From positions 1 to 36,634 of the forward strand of contig JAHJMN010000068.1 in the NCBI GenBank assembly GCA_018821305.1: a stretch of 36,634 bases of DNA, written 5' to 3'. This document shows, in pieces, positions 19,961-31,857 of this stretch. The translations under genes and the position numbers were made by a program. The notes under the pieces are model-generated. The model did no database searches. It was not told the DNA's origin and saw only the letters and a program-made list of their open reading frames with translations. Origin of the DNA: Myxococcota bacterium (GTDB lineage Bacteria; Myxococcota_A; Polyangia; HGW-17). Position 1 is the first letter of the stretch, and every line of letters begins with the position of its first letter.

Positions 19961-20809
19961 TTAATTGCCGTTTATCAGGGAAAGCGCTGTTGAGGGTAAC
20001 TGATTTGCCTGAGAAAGAACACTTACTCCAGCTTGCATGAGAATCTGATCCTTTGTGAGCTCTGCGGTCTGGAAAGCTACATCCACATCCCTGATCTGGC
20101 TGTTTGCAGCACTGAGGTTTTCTGCATAAGAGCTAAGGTTGTTTTGAGTAACAGTAAGACGATTCTGTATAGCCCCAAGTTTCGCTCTCACTTCACTGAT
20201 ATCATAAATGGAAGCGTCAATTACATCAAGTGACTGCAAGGCTCTCGTAACGGTTGAAACACCCATAAGGTTCAGCGTGGAAAGGCCTGTCCCCATCTGT
20301 GAAGTACGACAATTGGGTATTGAGACAATCAAACGGTCATCGGAATCGGGACCAATTCCTACTTGAAAAGCAAGCCCCGTGGCCTGAGTTCCATCAAGGA
20401 GTGGATGGGAGTTAAACTCTGTTACACGGGCAATGCGGTCTACTTCATCAATCAATTCCGTAAATTCATCGTTGAGAAAACTCCGGTCAATATCACTTAA
20501 AACATCATTTGCACTGTGGATTGCAAGTTCCCGGAGCCGATCCATTATGCTGTGGACTTCATTCAGTGCTCCTTCAGCAGTTTGTATAAGACTGATTCCG
20601 TCCGCTGCATTTCGATAAGCCTGATTCAGGGATCGGATCTGCGCTTTCATTTTTTCTGAAATTGCTAGCCCTGCTGCATCATCCGCAGCGTTGCGAACCC
20701 TCAATCCGGAAGATAGTTTAGATAGACTCAAATCCAGATTTTTCTGTGTGGTGGAAAGGTTTCGCTGAGCGTTCAACGACGGGATGTTTGTTCGGATTGA
20801 AACGGACAT
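19961..20809 (-). CDS. Flagellin
   Basis: 282 residues from ATG 20809, placed by AAGGAG six bases upstream; the frame extends eight residues further without a signal. The N-terminal D0/D1 region is textbook flagellin: S-I-R-T-N-I-P-S-L-N-A-Q-R-N-L, L-S-S-G-L-R-V-R-N-A-A-D-D-A-A-G-L-A-I. The C-terminal D1/D0 ends Q-A-N-Q-L-P-S-T-A-L-S-L-I. Between them only a short loop is present, so the variable D2/D3 domains are absent and the protein is near the family minimum. It polymerises into the flagellar filament. No other flagellar gene is in the window. The leader contains a complete family-2 MITE. Confidence 0.95.
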   Translation of the reverse strand: MSVSIRTNIPSLNAQRNLSTTQKNLDLSLSKLSSGLRVRNAADDAAGLAISEKMKAQIRSLNQAYRNAADGISLIQTAEGALNEVHSIMDRLRELAIHSANDVLSDIDRSFLNDEFTELIDEVDRIARVTEFNSHPLLDGTQATGLAFQVGIGPDSDDRLIVSIPNCRTSQMGTGLSTLNLMGVSTVTRALQSLDVIDASIYDISEVRAKLGAIQNRLTVTQNNLSSYAENLSAANSQIRDVDVAFQTAELTKDQILMQAGVSVLSQANQLPSTALSLINGN

Positions 20810-20855
20810 GGGGAGCTCCTTCATCCTGAACATAATTTCAAGGTCTTCATTGAGC

Positions 20856-21054: not shown

Positions 21055-22131
21055 TTACCATTTATTGATTTTGAGGATGTTTCTGGGCTTTATAGTGATA
21101 TCCATGGTCTTTTGCTTCTTTTTATCAAAACTTACGAGTTTAAGTGTGTATGAACCGACCCTGAGACCGATCACTTCAAACAGGCCGGCATCCATAAACT
21201 TTCCTTTTCCGGGGCCATCCTTAGGCGCGATATAAATGCGGGCCCAGGGATTCAGATTGACTGCAATGCCACCATACTGGAAGTCAAGTTTTGTTTTTTT
21301 GCCGGGTTCCACATTTACCCAGAAACGATAGGCGATGAAGTACTTGGGACAAATGAAACCGACTCCGTAGCGTCCTTTGGGAAGTTCAAGTTTTTTAACA
21401 GGGGTTGAGACCATACGATCCCTGGCATTTACGAGATTCTGCCCGGAAATATTAACGTAGCATTCATAACTGCTTGATAGATCTATTGTGCCAAGAGTAT
21501 TTTTTGCTTCTTTGCTTAACTTTTTCTTTACGCGGGTTGCGTTTTCTCCAAGTGGTCTGACCCTCAGGTACCAGAGATAAAACTCGTCTGCTTGTTTTTT
21601 GTCCTTCAGGTTGTCATAAATTTCACCGAGATGACGATAAACGCCGATAAGGCCGGGATGTAACTTCAATGCAACGGTAAGCATATCCCTGGCTTCTTTG
21701 TATTTTTTTGAACTTTTAAGTTTTAGACCTTCTTTGAACGCTTTCTGCGCGAGGTCAGGTATACTTGTACTCACGGGAACTGTGTCATCACCGGTAGCTG
21801 CAACAGACAGTCGATTTATATTAATTCGGAAGGAATTACATTGATCTTTTGAGTAACAGTTCTTTTTACATGAGTTACCGCAATGATTTGAGACCATTGT
21901 TCGATAAAGATCCAATGCTGTATCTGAACGGTTTGTAGAAAGATAGATGGCTGCAAGTGAACTCATTGCAGTAAGGTTATCTGGGTCGATGATCCTCAAT
22001 GCTTCATAAATTGTGGCAGCTTTGTCTTTCTGGTTTTTGGACATAGCTTCGGAAGCTCCCTTGAGAAGTTCAGACTTGATTCCCGTCTGTGTGGTCAGAA
22101 GAGGGAACAGCAGTACAAAAACAGTAGTCAT
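21055..22131 (-). CDS. Exported TPR protein with C-terminal PEGA-like domains
   Basis: 358 residues from ATG 22131, chosen because AGGTG lies six bases upstream and a signal-like hydrophobic N-terminus (V-F-V-L-L-F-P-L-L) follows; the open frame continues 32 residues further upstream without support. Two blocks of tetratricopeptide-like repeats are separated by an insert with four closely spaced Cys (C-G-N-S-C-K-K-N-C...C). The C-terminal 130 residues read like PEGA beta-domains (L-E-L-P-K-G-R-Y-G-V). TPR regions bind proteins and PEGA domains are usually extracytoplasmic. It is probably a periplasmic scaffold; the partner is unknown. Confidence 0.75.
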   Translation of the reverse strand: MTTVFVLLFPLLTTQTGIKSELLKGASEAMSKNQKDKAATIYEALRIIDPDNLTAMSSLAAIYLSTNRSDTALDLYRTMVSNHCGNSCKKNCYSKDQCNSFRININRLSVAATGDDTVPVSTSIPDLAQKAFKEGLKLKSSKKYKEARDMLTVALKLHPGLIGVYRHLGEIYDNLKDKKQADEFYLWYLRVRPLGENATRVKKKLSKEAKNTLGTIDLSSSYECYVNISGQNLVNARDRMVSTPVKKLELPKGRYGVGFICPKYFIAYRFWVNVEPGKKTKLDFQYGGIAVNLNPWARIYIAPKDGPGKGKFMDAGLFEVIGLRVGSYTLKLVSFDKKKQKTMDITIKPRNILKINKW

Positions 22132-22444
22132 GTTAATCACCTGATACCCGATAGGGTTGAAAAATAGCCTGTAATACTTGTGGTATTTTAGAACATAGGC
22201 TGGCGTTTGTGAAGTTTGAATTACCACAAAATAAAATTTTCCTCTGAATAGAATTTTATAATCAGATATTTACTTCAAATTGTTTTTATCCTTCATGGTT
22301 TAAGTAACTGAAAATATAGTGTAAAAAAGATGTGGTATTCCTTGACCAAAATTATAATTGTTAGAGAATTGTAAGTTTTTTAATTAAGAAAAAAAATTTA
22401 TATTTGATCTTGAACGAAAATCCGCCGATAATCAGGAGAACCAA
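22132..22444. other. AT-rich divergent intergenic region
   Basis: About 313 bases between the divergent TPR/PEGA and REC/HATPase genes. It is strongly AT-rich in 22228-22420 with several A or T runs. A TTGACC at about 22343 has no convincing -10 partner at normal spacing. It probably holds promoters for both genes; nothing more specific can be supported, and no MITE-like end was seen. Confidence 0.5.
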
Positions 22445-23470
22445 ATGGTCTTGGAGATGGTTCAACTATCTCCAGTTAAGATACCGAACGTGAGGATTCG
22501 TAATCCTGACACGAACGAGGTACCAAAGATGGCTCAGGAAAATCAGCCGAAAGTATTTTTATTTCACCCGGACAAACTGCTTCAGAAGAAGCTGGAGAAG
22601 ATATTTTTTGCATCGGAAGTTGAGTTTCAGGTTTTTGACAATCCTCCTTCTCTTGAAATTCTGAAAAAAGACCCTGCTGTTGTTTTTATTGACCGTAAAT
22701 TTTTAAAGGCATATCTCACTATCCCTAAAACTATCTGTCCCGGGCAATGCGTTCTAATTAATTCCGATGAACCGGGGGATATGTTTGAACATATGCTCAA
22801 AGAGCCAAGACTGAACCATGTAATCGGCCGTAAAGAAGGAGAACCCATCCGTTCGTGGGAGATCCTTTATACCACACGACGCCTTGCTTATGAGTATAAA
22901 GCTTATGGTTTAAAAAATCTTCTTGGCTGGGCCGGCCGCATTCATGATGCCTGGATTATGGGCACGGAGGATCTGCACAACATCGTCCAATGGGTTCCTT
23001 CATTTTGTGAAGCTATGGGCGCACCGCCAAAAGTCCGTGAGGCTTTTGCTGAGCTTACCCATGAGCTTCTTATGAATGCAGTATACGATGCAGTTATGGA
23101 TGACGAAGGAAACCACCCGTATGCTCATGACAGGAAAGCTTCTGTTAAACTTAAGGAATCTGAATATCCGTTGTTTTCGATTGGAACTGACGGTGAAATG
23201 CTTGCTGTTGCGGTTAGAGATCCCTTTGGTGGCCTTCGGCGCAAGCATGTGTTCGGTGGTTTATCCCGGGCTCTACAGAATCAGGGACAGATCGACGCTT
23301 CCGGAGGGGGCGCTGGACTTGGAATGATGTACATTTACCAACACGGGATTGGAAGTATTTTTACAGTAAAAAACGAAAAAATGACAGAAGTCATTGTTTA
23401 CTATGACTTATCTGTTAATCGCAGGGATTTTGCGGTTCTTCCGAAATCCGTTCATTTTTATCTGGAGTAG
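22445..23470 (+). CDS. Receiver-like plus HATPase (anti-sigma/switch kinase-like) protein
   Basis: 341 residues. CAGGAG precedes the ATG at 22445; a second start at 22529 (Met29, with GAGGT seven bases upstream) is equally plausible and begins right at the first domain. Residues about 36-140 look like a receiver domain (V-F-L-F-H-P-D43, then V-V-F-I-D83 as candidate phosphoacceptor, a late R-K). Residues about 170-335 form a GHKL ATPase of the RsbW/SpoIIAB type: N-box E207-L-L-M-N211-A, G1 box D259-P-F-G-G, G2 box G-G-G-A-G-L-G. Such kinases phosphorylate STAS-domain antagonists. The next gene encodes two STAS domains, so this is a likely cognate pair. Confidence 0.8.
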   Translation: MVLEMVQLSPVKIPNVRIRNPDTNEVPKMAQENQPKVFLFHPDKLLQKKLEKIFFASEVEFQVFDNPPSLEILKKDPAVVFIDRKFLKAYLTIPKTICPGQCVLINSDEPGDMFEHMLKEPRLNHVIGRKEGEPIRSWEILYTTRRLAYEYKAYGLKNLLGWAGRIHDAWIMGTEDLHNIVQWVPSFCEAMGAPPKVREAFAELTHELLMNAVYDAVMDDEGNHPYAHDRKASVKLKESEYPLFSIGTDGEMLAVAVRDPFGGLRRKHVFGGLSRALQNQGQIDASGGGAGLGMMYIYQHGIGSIFTVKNEKMTEVIVYYDLSVNRRDFAVLPKSVHFYLE

Positions 23471-23844: not shown

Positions 23845-26037
23845 ATGGCTGAAGAAAATCGCCTTGAAGTCAGAAAAGTAGTCGAAGGAAAAATAACCGC
23901 TCTCCAACTGAACGGAGTCATTGACGAAAGTTTCAGTGGTAAACAGTTAGCAGAAGGAATCAAAGGAAAGTTGATAATTGATTTCAGCGGGATCAAGCGC
24001 ATTACGTCCTTTGGTATCCGAGAATGGCTTGAGTTTCTGAAAACTGTCGAAGACAAATGTGATGGCATCTATTTTATCAAGTGTCCCTCCCGCATTATCG
24101 ATCAGTTCAACATGGTTGCCAATTTCGGTGGGTCCAAAGGGGCAATTCTCTCATTTTTTGCTCCTTATCACTGTGACTACTGTGAAGCTGATCACAGCGA
24201 ACTTGTGGACGTGGCCGATTACCATGATTCCATCAAAGATTCAAAACTTCCCGATAGACCATGTACCACCTGCGGAAACCCTGAATATCTGGATGAGAGC
24301 CCGGAAATTTTCCTTTCGTACCTCGCCGGAGTTTCCAAGCCCGAAATTGAAGCAGATGTGGCTGCATTCCTTTCTCATCGCCTGAAATATCAAGTATCCC
24401 GCAGCCGTCAGAAACTCAAAATCGACATGCACGTGGGTGAGGCTACCTATATCCGTTTTACCGGGGATATCGATGCCGCATTCCAGGGGCGAAAAATGGC
24501 CGAGGGCATCGAAGGAAAAGTCATTTTTGACATGGACGGTGTTGGCGATATTACAGAAGACGGAATTGAAATCTGGACAAGCATGCTCCGCATTATGGAT
24601 GAAAACGTAGAAAATGTTTACATGATAGGTGTAAACGCTGCGGTTTTAGGACGAATTCTGGCAAATGAGGGTATGATTACCCCGAAGGTGAAACTTGTTG
24701 ATCTGTATCTTCCTTATAACTGTACTTCATGTAATACGACCTTAGATCAGCATGTAAATGTTGACGACCATTTTGAAGTTCTCAAATTTGCCACCGCGCC
24801 GGAGCTCAAATGCCCCGATTGTGGAGGAAAGAGTGTTTGCCAGCTGGATGAAAACATTCTCTCTGAAATCGCTAAAATCCAGAAACCGGATTTTCCTAAA
24901 ACTTTTGTAAAATTTATTGAAAAAGCTCGTGATGAAATTCGCAAGTCCGCTGCACCTGTACCTCAGGTAGCCTCCAGTGAATCCGCTGGTGGAGGGTCAA
25001 GCCTTACTATTATAGCCGCTCTTGCAATATTTCTTGTAATTATAGCTGCCGGGGGGTATTTCCTTTACACAAAGGTTCTTACAAAAAAAGAAACAGTAAA
25101 GGAAAAACTGGAAATGGTGGAGCAGAGTCCGAAAAACAAACCAACCTGGGTCGTGCCTAAAATCACAGCGTCGGTAAAAGGCGATGTCGTTGAAGTTATC
25201 GCATTTGCAGATGAAGTGGACAAGCCCGATCAGGGTATCGGAGAAGCTCTTGGCTGGGCAATAGATCAGTACGTTGAGTTCCTCGCGGACAGGGTTGTGG
25301 AAAAGGATCAACTCTGGAAAACCGTAGTTAGAGGTCTTTACCTGCAGCCCCGGGAAGAGGTTCTCGCCCAGTGGAGGGATTCCGGTGCGAGCAAAACCCG
25401 CCGGGCGGAAGTTTATCGTCGAATAAAAGAATACCACAACGCCATCGGGACATCTTTCCGCATTGCTTTTGGTAAAGAAATTCAGCCGACGGAGACCTAC
25501 TGGGAAAAATATATCCGCACTACCAGAATTGGTGAAACGGTATTTTATCGGGTGTGGGTAAAACTTGAGTTTCCAAAGAAAGTTACAGACCGTATGGTCG
25601 CATATTTCGCCGATCGTAAGGATTTCGACGGTGTTTCCGTAGTTCGGCTTTTCCCGGGCCTCAACTGGGCTTTCCCAAAAATAGCCCGTGGTCTTGCTGT
25701 ATTATCCATAGGTTCTTCAAGTAAATTCAATGGTGTTCTCAAGGTCGGCAACATTGTTACCAAGTTTGCCAATGAAGAACTTAATGAACTCAAGGATTTC
25801 CAGGACAAATTCGAAAGTATTCTCAAAGTTCAGAAGGAAAAAGAGCAGTGTAACAATATCACAGTTCATTTCCACTACTGGAACAGCGAACTTAAAAACC
25901 CAAGGGAAACAACTGCAGACTATGAACGTAACTGCCCCAAAAAAGTTGAAGTAAAAACCATCATAAAAACCGTCCCCGGAAACAATAATCAGGGTACTGG
26001 TTTTCAGGGCAATATATGGGACGACCCCAGCAAATAG
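23845..26037 (+). CDS. Membrane protein with two STAS/zinc-ribbon modules and extracytoplasmic domain
   Basis: 730 residues from ATG 23845, six bases after GGAG. Two tandem modules, each a STAS-like domain plus a four-Cys zinc ribbon with identical spacing: C110-x2-C113, 26 residues, C140-x2-C143; and C293-x2-C296, 26 residues, C323-x2-C326. In STAS 1 the switch loop reads I-T-S55-F-G-I, with Ser at the SpoIIAA phosphosite. In STAS 2 it reads I-T-E238-D-G-I, with Glu there. One membrane helix (about 385-412) follows, then about 315 residues predicted outside the cytoplasm, of no recognised family. With the HATPase gene upstream it forms a likely partner-switching pair able to couple to the periplasm. 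Confidence 0.75.
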   Translation: MAEENRLEVRKVVEGKITALQLNGVIDESFSGKQLAEGIKGKLIIDFSGIKRITSFGIREWLEFLKTVEDKCDGIYFIKCPSRIIDQFNMVANFGGSKGAILSFFAPYHCDYCEADHSELVDVADYHDSIKDSKLPDRPCTTCGNPEYLDESPEIFLSYLAGVSKPEIEADVAAFLSHRLKYQVSRSRQKLKIDMHVGEATYIRFTGDIDAAFQGRKMAEGIEGKVIFDMDGVGDITEDGIEIWTSMLRIMDENVENVYMIGVNAAVLGRILANEGMITPKVKLVDLYLPYNCTSCNTTLDQHVNVDDHFEVLKFATAPELKCPDCGGKSVCQLDENILSEIAKIQKPDFPKTFVKFIEKARDEIRKSAAPVPQVASSESAGGGSSLTIIAALAIFLVIIAAGGYFLYTKVLTKKETVKEKLEMVEQSPKNKPTWVVPKITASVKGDVVEVIAFADEVDKPDQGIGEALGWAIDQYVEFLADRVVEKDQLWKTVVRGLYLQPREEVLAQWRDSGASKTRRAEVYRRIKEYHNAIGTSFRIAFGKEIQPTETYWEKYIRTTRIGETVFYRVWVKLEFPKKVTDRMVAYFADRKDFDGVSVVRLFPGLNWAFPKIARGLAVLSIGSSSKFNGVLKVGNIVTKFANEELNELKDFQDKFESILKVQKEKEQCNNITVHFHYWNSELKNPRETTADYERNCPKKVEVKTIIKTVPGNNNQGTGFQGNIWDDPSK

Positions 26038-29690: not shown

Positions 29691-31727
29691 TCAAATCAAC
29701 TTTCTTCTTAAGAAAATGATGAAGCCAATTATAAACACAGGCCAGAGTCTGTGTGATGAAGTACTGCCCACAGTACTGCAACCGCAGCCTTCCTCTTTTT
29801 CTTCTTCAGGTGTTTTTAGATAGTTGCAATAGGAAAAATTATTGCAGTTGGGATCATCGCAATCGATGAGGCCATCTCCATCATCGTCTGAGTTGTTATT
29901 GCAAATTTCTCCGGAAATCTCACCGCACGGGGCAAAAGACTGGCAATCCACATCGTCGCAGTCAGTCAATCCGTCTCCGTCATCATCCAGATAATTCCCG
30001 CAAATTTCCACGGAGAGGGGGCAATGACTGCTTGAACGGCACATTTTGTCTTCACAGTCGATTTTTCCGTCGCCGTTGTCATCGACACCGTTATCACAAA
30101 CTTCGAAGCCTGTAACGGAGCATGAAGGGTGGGCAGCACAATCGGCATCGGCACAGTCTATGTGGAAGTCACCATCGTCATCAATATTATTACCACAAAT
30201 TTCTGTTCGACTGAGGCATGCAAGAAATGTCCGGCAATCGGCATCGTCGCAATCAATGAGTCCGTCGCCATCATTGTCAGTTCCATCGGAACAATTTTCC
30301 GTTGTGTCAATTTCAACACAGTTGGGGTAACTTAAGCAGTCGGAATCATCACAGTCTACACTGCCATCAAGATCATCATCGATGCCGTTATTGCAGATTT
30401 CTTCAAGAATAACTTCGGTACTGTCACAGGTGATTGATAGTGTGAAATTTCCTGCATTTTCATATGTTTCAATGAACAGATAATGAGCTTTCGCATCGGT
30501 TTGGAAGGAAAGGACTTCAGGCTGACCCGGGCTGTTCATGGATGCGGTCTCGCAATTTGTCGGACTACAGTCACCTTTTACGAGGATGAGATCCAGGTCC
30601 GAGTCAACATTTTCGGGAGTCATAACAGCAGTAACCTGAGTATTTGCAGGGACATCAATGAAAAAAGCCTGCTCTGGACCCTGACTGGAAAAGCCCAGGG
30701 TACAGGAATCAGGATATCTTTCATAGGCAAGGAAACCGTAATCAGTTGAAAGTGTGCGTTCTTCTCCGCATGTGATTGTCTCAGGAAGATCACATGCACG
30801 AGGCATGCAACCTGTAAACATCTCACAGTAATAATCATCACAATCGGTATAACCGTCTTCGTTGTCGTCGATGCCATTAACACAATTTTCGTCTCCCATT
30901 ACATAGTAGTCGACGAAATCATCAACAAAAGCATCAACTTTTGTTGCTACAGACAAATAATCGCAAAGATCATCATCGTTAAGATACGTAAACGAAGAAA
31001 TACCTGCAACGTAAGTTTCACCAGCTATAGTTACCAAGAACGGGCCACCGTAGTCGTTAAAACAGATTCCGGGATATGATGGATCTGAATTGGATGAGCG
31101 GATACCAAGGCTGTTATTGGGCATGTCAACAGTGACACCAGAAACCGTTTGTGAGCAGCCTGCTGCCTGAGAACAGATATAGCCTAAAGGGACTACAGCT
31201 TCTCTTTTTCCCCAGTTTATATTTTCGGTTCCCTCGGTATAACCGAATCCTACCATTGTAATTGCAGTGTTATTTAAATCCGTAGAGCCGAGAGCAAGAG
31301 AAGAAGGTAGTGCCTTTATGGGAATTACGCCTTCCGGGGCCGCAGATTCAAGCTCAATAATAGCCAGATCGTTTCCCGCCCAGTATTCTGCGGGATTGAA
31401 CAAATCATGAACGTAAAAATCCACCACATTTCGGTATAATTTTCCAGGATCGTCAACGATATTATAAGTAAAATAAACTACAAGATCCGACGGTTGTCGG
31501 CCATCAACGCATGTTGCGGAAGTGAGTACAAGATTCTGGGAAACCAGAACTCCGCTGCACAGACCCGAACCAGATAGAAGAATTGCAACTACTGCAGGGT
31601 GTCCATCCTCAGGAGTCTGGGTCCCGTGCATAATCATTGGCAATGAGTTTTCGACAGGACCTGAGTCATTTCTGCCACAAGAAGAAGAAAATATTGAAAG
31701 AAAAAGAAAAAGCTTTAAATACCTCAT
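29691..31727 (-). CDS. Trypsin-fold surface protein lacking catalytic His and Ser, with MopE-like repeats
   Basis: 678 residues from ATG 31727 (CAGGAG upstream; the frame runs 35 residues longer without support). The signal peptide has a possible lipobox S-S-C17. Residues about 34-270 are S1 serine-protease-like, but L-T-A-A-H-C reads L-T-S-A-T72-C and G-D-S-G-G-P reads N-D-Y226-G-G-P; only the Asp (N-D120-L-A) remains. A PPC-like domain (about 310-420) follows a first acidic repeat. Six more repeats of C-N-N-G-x-D-D-D-x-D-G-x-x-D-C-D-D type follow, resembling MopE or thrombospondin type-3 calcium sites. The end G-C-G-C-S, hydrophobic helix, R-R-K resembles MYXO-CTERM. A binding rather than proteolytic role is likely. 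Confidence 0.85.
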   Translation of the reverse strand: MRYLKLFLFLSIFSSSCGRNDSGPVENSLPMIMHGTQTPEDGHPAVVAILLSGSGLCSGVLVSQNLVLTSATCVDGRQPSDLVVYFTYNIVDDPGKLYRNVVDFYVHDLFNPAEYWAGNDLAIIELESAAPEGVIPIKALPSSLALGSTDLNNTAITMVGFGYTEGTENINWGKREAVVPLGYICSQAAGCSQTVSGVTVDMPNNSLGIRSSNSDPSYPGICFNDYGGPFLVTIAGETYVAGISSFTYLNDDDLCDYLSVATKVDAFVDDFVDYYVMGDENCVNGIDDNEDGYTDCDDYYCEMFTGCMPRACDLPETITCGEERTLSTDYGFLAYERYPDSCTLGFSSQGPEQAFFIDVPANTQVTAVMTPENVDSDLDLILVKGDCSPTNCETASMNSPGQPEVLSFQTDAKAHYLFIETYENAGNFTLSITCDSTEVILEEICNNGIDDDLDGSVDCDDSDCLSYPNCVEIDTTENCSDGTDNDGDGLIDCDDADCRTFLACLSRTEICGNNIDDDGDFHIDCADADCAAHPSCSVTGFEVCDNGVDDNGDGKIDCEDKMCRSSSHCPLSVEICGNYLDDDGDGLTDCDDVDCQSFAPCGEISGEICNNNSDDDGDGLIDCDDPNCNNFSYCNYLKTPEEEKEEGCGCSTVGSTSSHRLWPVFIIGFIIFLRRKLI

Positions 31728-31857
31728 ATAACTCCTGATAAATGTTAGATTTTTTAGATTACTTCGCAATTTATATAGAAACATCAACAAACTGCTGAAT
31801 AAAAGTAATTTGTGAAGTATAAATAAAATCAAATTTATTTCAAGAGCTGATTTAACC

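Follow-up and report, generated by a model that had tools for sequence, protein, structure and literature searches.

Here, we describe a protein of the Myxococcota that carries two STAS domains and that we read, with a probability of roughly 60%, as a partner switch anchored in the membrane, in which one STAS module works and the other is degenerate. Its established parts are the two-STAS architecture, an invariant serine (Ser55) in module 1, a switch face that module 2 has lost as a whole, a conserved HATPase gene upstream and a PDZ domain past the membrane helix. Kinase activity, topology and output of the switch are what we infer beyond these parts.

The window comprises the whole stretch of DNA analysed, 36,634 nucleotides of contig JAHJMN010000068.1. 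The protein is encoded on its forward strand at 23845-26037 by an open reading frame for 730 residues that has homologues in related genomes. STAS module 1 (residues 6-104; 23860-24156) is followed by a zinc ribbon with the cysteine pattern C110/C113...C140/C143 (24157-24294), and STAS module 2 (residues 190-287; 24412-24705) by a second ribbon with C293/C296...C323/C326 (24706-24840). The first-pass annotation of this DNA had proposed such tandem STAS and zinc-ribbon modules, which is borne out by Pfam matches of homologues and by a structure model. It had also pointed to an identical spacing between the Cys pairs, which is exactly 26 residues in each module, and to a close alignment of both modules, which we recover as a full-length profile match over 157 columns (hhalign E 2.3e-27). 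In this alignment Ser55 (codon TCC, 24007-24009) of the motif I53-T54-S55-F56-G57-I58 lies opposite Glu238 (codon GAA, 24556-24558) of the motif I236-T237-E238-D239-G240-I241. Further downstream we find a predicted transmembrane helix (residues about 386-410; 25000-25074), an alpha/beta domain that is probably extracytoplasmic (residues 416-600; 25090-25644), the PDZ domain (residues about 600-694; 25642-25926) and, after a disordered linker, a conserved C-terminal tail, N-I-W-D-D-P-S-K (26011-26034).

The query sequence alone matched no STAS entry in sequence-only searches of Pfam, NCBIfam and PDB, and the identification thus needed profiles and structure. Matches to CD34_antigen and to C2H2 zinc fingers were set aside as chance or shared-Cys matches. 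Pfam STAS (PF01740) is matched by 14 out of 17 homologues, at best with 3e-7, and a profile built from 57 modules reaches PDB entry 4hyl (E 3e-5); SpoIIAA and RsbV also appear, among its weaker matches. Aligned directly with SpoIIAA of B. subtilis (hhalign E 9e-6; the SpoIIAA sequence used is identical to PDB 1auz over residues 2-117), the module profile places T54/S55/F56/G57 opposite D57/S58/S59/G60. For residues 1-385, AlphaFold2 gives a model with two STAS folds (pLDDT 84.9, pTM 0.73), and the helix after strand beta-3 starts exactly at residue 55 in module 1 and at residue 238 in module 2. The best PDB matches of the model in Foldseek are 4hyl, SpoIIAA (1til/1thn/1th8/1tid, in complex with SpoIIAB) and RsbV (6m36, in complex with RsbW); structures of MlaB are found among the weaker fold and profile matches. 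Structure prediction and SpoIIAA alignment had been among the checks proposed in the first pass; the alignment puts Ser55 at the SpoIIAA Ser58 position, and the model puts Ser55 and Glu238 at equivalent positions of STAS folds. Since Ser55 and Gly57 are the sole invariant residues among the 57 diverse modules, the correspondence to SpoIIAA is more than chance. Ser55, earlier suggested as the SpoIIAA-type switch residue, is aligned with SpoIIAA Ser58 and kept in all 58 of the 58 module-1-type sequences.

Module 2 presents a different picture. Our sequence set, drawn entirely from Myxococcota genomes, comprises 25 distinct tandem proteins plus 34 other modules, almost all of which belong to single-module proteins; the counts given here are counts of sequences rather than independent events, and some rows are close relatives (L046-L048, L036/L037). 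A module-2 profile of six sequences was mis-registered against SpoIIAA, and module 2 was placed via the module 1 alignment and the model instead. The position opposite Ser55 is occupied by Pro in 16, Glu in 4, Asp in 4 and Thr in 1 of the 25 tandem proteins, and never by Ser. Four further residues are nearly invariant in module-1-type sequences, namely Glu28 (56/58), Arg59 (57/58), Gln87 (57/58) and Asn89 (54/58), while the same positions retain these residues in 0-1 out of 25 module-2 copies. In the source protein they are exchanged for A211, E242, R270 and L272, respectively. We refer to the four residues as a presumed switch face, judging from where they sit in the fold and by comparison with the SpoIIAA class. 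Gly24, Asp27, Gly57, Trp61, Pro107 and the four cysteines are retained in module 2. Moreover, 23 of the 25 copies have Arg or Lys at position 87, and module 2 is therefore conserved in its own way. In a maximum-likelihood tree, a branch with 100/100 support has every module-2 copy on the same side, which is the pattern expected if an old duplication took place once and loss followed. We conclude that the switch face of module 2 was lost as a unit.

The first-pass annotation had suggested that Glu238 could permanently mimic the phosphorylated state, such that the HATPase would be presented with one variable and one fixed input. The alignment of Glu238 with Ser55 speaks for this idea, as does the occurrence of Glu or Asp in all eight tandem proteins of the source genome's order that cover the region (six of the source genome's family, L039 and L041). 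There is also a precedent in RsbS, where a phosphomimetic Asp at Ser59 correlates with activation, as does phosphorylation (PMC3944199). However, the acid is confined to this order: a search of the homologues for the Ser/Glu pairing, suggested along with the idea, recovered Ser55 in 58/58 and an acid in all 8 proteins of the order, but Glu in only 4/25 overall, against 16 cases of Pro and one of Thr. Residues such as Glu, Asp and Pro are common in the first helical turn, and their presence at this site may simply have a structural reason. In addition, the other near-invariant residues of the switch face are gone, in the source protein as well, so that the HATPase would probably not read the surface of module 2, whatever its charge. 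A constitutively phosphomimetic STAS domain would conserve the acid and keep its partner-binding face, and module 2 does neither. We consider the phosphomimic very unlikely. Because the site is mostly Pro and otherwise Glu, Asp or Thr, the conserved trait is the loss of Ser and not the gain of an acid. Glu238 itself is, by its distribution, a local and order-specific state of the switch-face loss. On these sequence comparisons, the best reading of module 2 is that it has degenerated and would not serve as a substrate.

The gene of the putative partner ATPase is located at 22445-23470 on the same strand. The product combines a receiver-like N-terminus, recognised weakly, with a HATPase domain carrying the N-box E207...N211, D259-x-F-G262 and GGAGLG at 288-293. 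Searched alone, this open reading frame matched no Pfam family; together with 17 relatives, HATPase_c was matched in 8 and HATPase_c_2 in 2 of the 18 sequences, the N-box Glu and Asn being invariant and both glycine motifs kept in all of them. The N-box Glu is the catalytic base in the SpoIIAB class. A partnership of this product with the STAS protein, as assumed in the first pass, is in good agreement with its conservation as neighbour: in 22 out of 24 testable tandem STAS loci the HATPase gene immediately precedes the STAS gene in the same orientation (exceptions are L066 and L087; L086 ends at a contig edge and stands outside this count). Co-transcription is not assured, because 374 bases separate both genes in the source genome. 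HATPase genes are likewise followed by many soluble single-module STAS genes (L061-L065, L073, L074, L083, L084, L092), and in one relative, at L067:9960-12431, a HATPase (450-648) and a STAS-zinc-ribbon module (674-823) are fused in one open reading frame of 824 residues. SpoIIE-type phosphatase genes are present in the source genome. Among the conserved neighbours of the locus we recognised neither a sigma factor nor another output target.

Alternatively, the STAS modules could act independently of phosphorylation, as adaptors that dock onto the ATPase or another protein, with Ser55 kept for binding or folding. STAS regulators that act by binding are known, e.g., MlaB on its ABC ATPase (PMC7367683), and MlaB is among our weaker fold and profile matches; the kinase role of the HATPase is assigned by analogy. 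Yet Ser55 is kept in 58/58 sequences although neighbouring residues vary, and the fold is matched best by SpoIIAA and RsbV rather than MlaB. Since the adjacent HATPase also keeps the N-box Glu, mere docking seems rather unlikely to us, and a partner switch on module 1 is preferred.

Further STAS-zinc-ribbon proteins were observed beside the tandem type. The source genome holds a tail-anchored single-module paralogue (L055:9778-10773; C4:87909) with the motif INSCGVRDWVNW, which adjoins an open reading frame of 1457 residues; this tail-anchored type recurs in most relatives examined. At L070:768-9998, on the reverse strand, two adjacent and very long open reading frames (1112 and over 1700 residues) lie beside a HATPase gene. 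Both of them contain one STAS copy of the module-1 type and one of the module-2 type, with a transmembrane segment behind.

The membrane helix named in the first-pass annotation is supported by hydropathy, with a hydrophobic helix at about 386-410. The 315 residues behind it, described at first as one unassigned extracytoplasmic domain, can in part be assigned. The whole region is well predicted (pLDDT 87.7), and its second half is a PDZ domain by profile and by fold: Pfam PDZ_2 is matched in 7 out of 15 homologues (best 4.9e-10), the query alone staying under Pfam detection; the profile is of the DegP type (E 1.4e-13); and Foldseek returns an HtrA PDZ domain with a probability of 1.00, but with an E-value of 8e-3. 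The first half (residues 416-600) was assigned to no known family, and Foldseek gave no match beyond the PDZ part. An extracytoplasmic location of the region is likely. Within 20 residues of the helix there are five positive charges on the C-terminal side versus one on the other side, and this distribution argues against an N-in/C-out topology. It would fit a C-terminal region that stays in the cytoplasm, the helix being a hairpin or peripheral, with the PDZ domain as a cytoplasmic adaptor and no coupling across the membrane. The Cys pair 669/697, which was gained together in the family and is kept in all five family members covering the region, the HtrA/DegP-type PDZ domain and an exported neighbour protein favour an outside location instead. 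We judge the cytoplasmic arrangement to be improbable; it concerns the topology only and would be compatible with a switch as such.

The neighbour in question is encoded divergently at 21055-22227 on the reverse strand, by a third gene that is conserved at the locus. The product is a TPR protein that is probably exported, with a C-terminal half that looks PEGA-like by eye. The gene accompanies the tandem STAS locus in 16 out of 25 distinct loci and across families, in 15 cases divergently and in L066 adjacent downstream. Several of the TPR relatives have, by eye, clear signal-peptide-like N-termini, and most of them carry a conserved Trp or Trp-Lys at the C-terminus, which might possibly be a ligand of the PDZ domain. 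The tail of the STAS protein has the consensus N-(I/V)-W-D...D-P-(S/T)-(K/Q/R); it is absent from the clade L044-L048, which also has no TPR neighbour. On this co-absence in one clade, binding of the N-x-W-D...DP tail by the TPR protein is a candidate lead. Two other reverse-strand genes in the window were noted. A flagellin-like open reading frame (19961-20833) shares 86% identity with a counterpart that adjoins this locus in a genome of the same genus. The product of 29691-31832 shows, by eye, a trypsin-like start, repeated units resembling C-x-N-x-x-D-D-D-x-D-G-x-x-D-C and a hydrophobic, sorting-like C-terminal tail.

Implementing these observations, the partner switch may work as follows. 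The HATPase, regulated via its receiver-like N-terminus, would bind module 1 and phosphorylate Ser55, which would set the HATPase free. Dephosphorylation of Ser55, possibly by a SpoIIE-type phosphatase encoded elsewhere in the genome, would let it rebind. Module 2 would not be a substrate and presumably serves as a platform, either structural or for alternative binding. Via the helix, the switch would be linked to the probably extracytoplasmic alpha/beta and PDZ region, which may contact the exported TPR protein. The state of the envelope could then alter the way in which the HATPase is held, or vice versa. The phosphorylation step is borrowed from what is known of the SpoIIAA/SpoIIAB family, and the coupling across the membrane is presumed. 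A stronger version, which we put forward tentatively and regard as possible rather than probable, holds that binding at the PDZ domain on the outside, e.g., of the C-terminal Trp of the TPR protein, alters the phosphorylation of Ser55 via the helix, with module 2 as a conserved regulator that cannot be phosphorylated.

The locus resembles several known systems in part. With SpoIIAA/SpoIIAB and RsbV/RsbW it shares a STAS serine that opens the helix after beta-3 and an adjacent HATPase with the N-box Glu/Asn, and these are also the nearest solved structures. SpoIIAA and RsbV are small, soluble, single-domain proteins; here, in contrast, 730 residues hold a pair of STAS modules with one zinc ribbon apiece, a transmembrane helix and a PDZ domain. 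In addition, the HATPase is extended by a receiver-like part, and no sigma factor was found among the conserved neighbours. The stressosome (RsbR/RsbS/RsbT) likewise combines more than one STAS domain and non-equivalent phosphosites with one HATPase kinase. Unlike there, the STAS copies are united in one membrane polypeptide, one of them is without a phosphosite, and a sensory N-domain of the RsbR type is not seen. MlaB, the regulator of the ABC ATPase MlaF, is also a STAS domain at the membrane beside an ATPase; our locus has no ABC ATPase, its serine is strictly conserved, and the fold match is weaker than to SpoIIAA/RsbV. HtrA/DegP share the PDZ profile and fold, whereas no protease domain was recognised in the STAS protein. 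All parts (STAS, HATPase, PDZ, TPR) are of known kinds, but their combination appears to be undescribed: in the open-access literature on tandem STAS and STAS-PDZ partner switching we found this architecture nowhere described. A phylum-wide search at E 1e-40, scoring three candidates per genome, placed every listed match in the same class of Myxococcota.

From a biological point of view, the Myxococcota hold a large and essentially unannotated family of STAS-zinc-ribbon proteins paired with their own ATPases, with up to 18 matching places per genome. In one conserved branch of it, two STAS copies, one working and one degenerate, are combined with a membrane helix and a PDZ domain. The case also cautions that a Glu which stands at the position of a lost Ser is not necessarily a phosphomimic. 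Most partner switches of the SpoIIAA/RsbV kind are soluble systems of the cytoplasm. If the proposed way of working is true, this branch would provide a route for a partner switch to read the cell envelope, and if the trans-membrane reading holds as well, one class of the Myxococcota would sense its envelope by partner switching.
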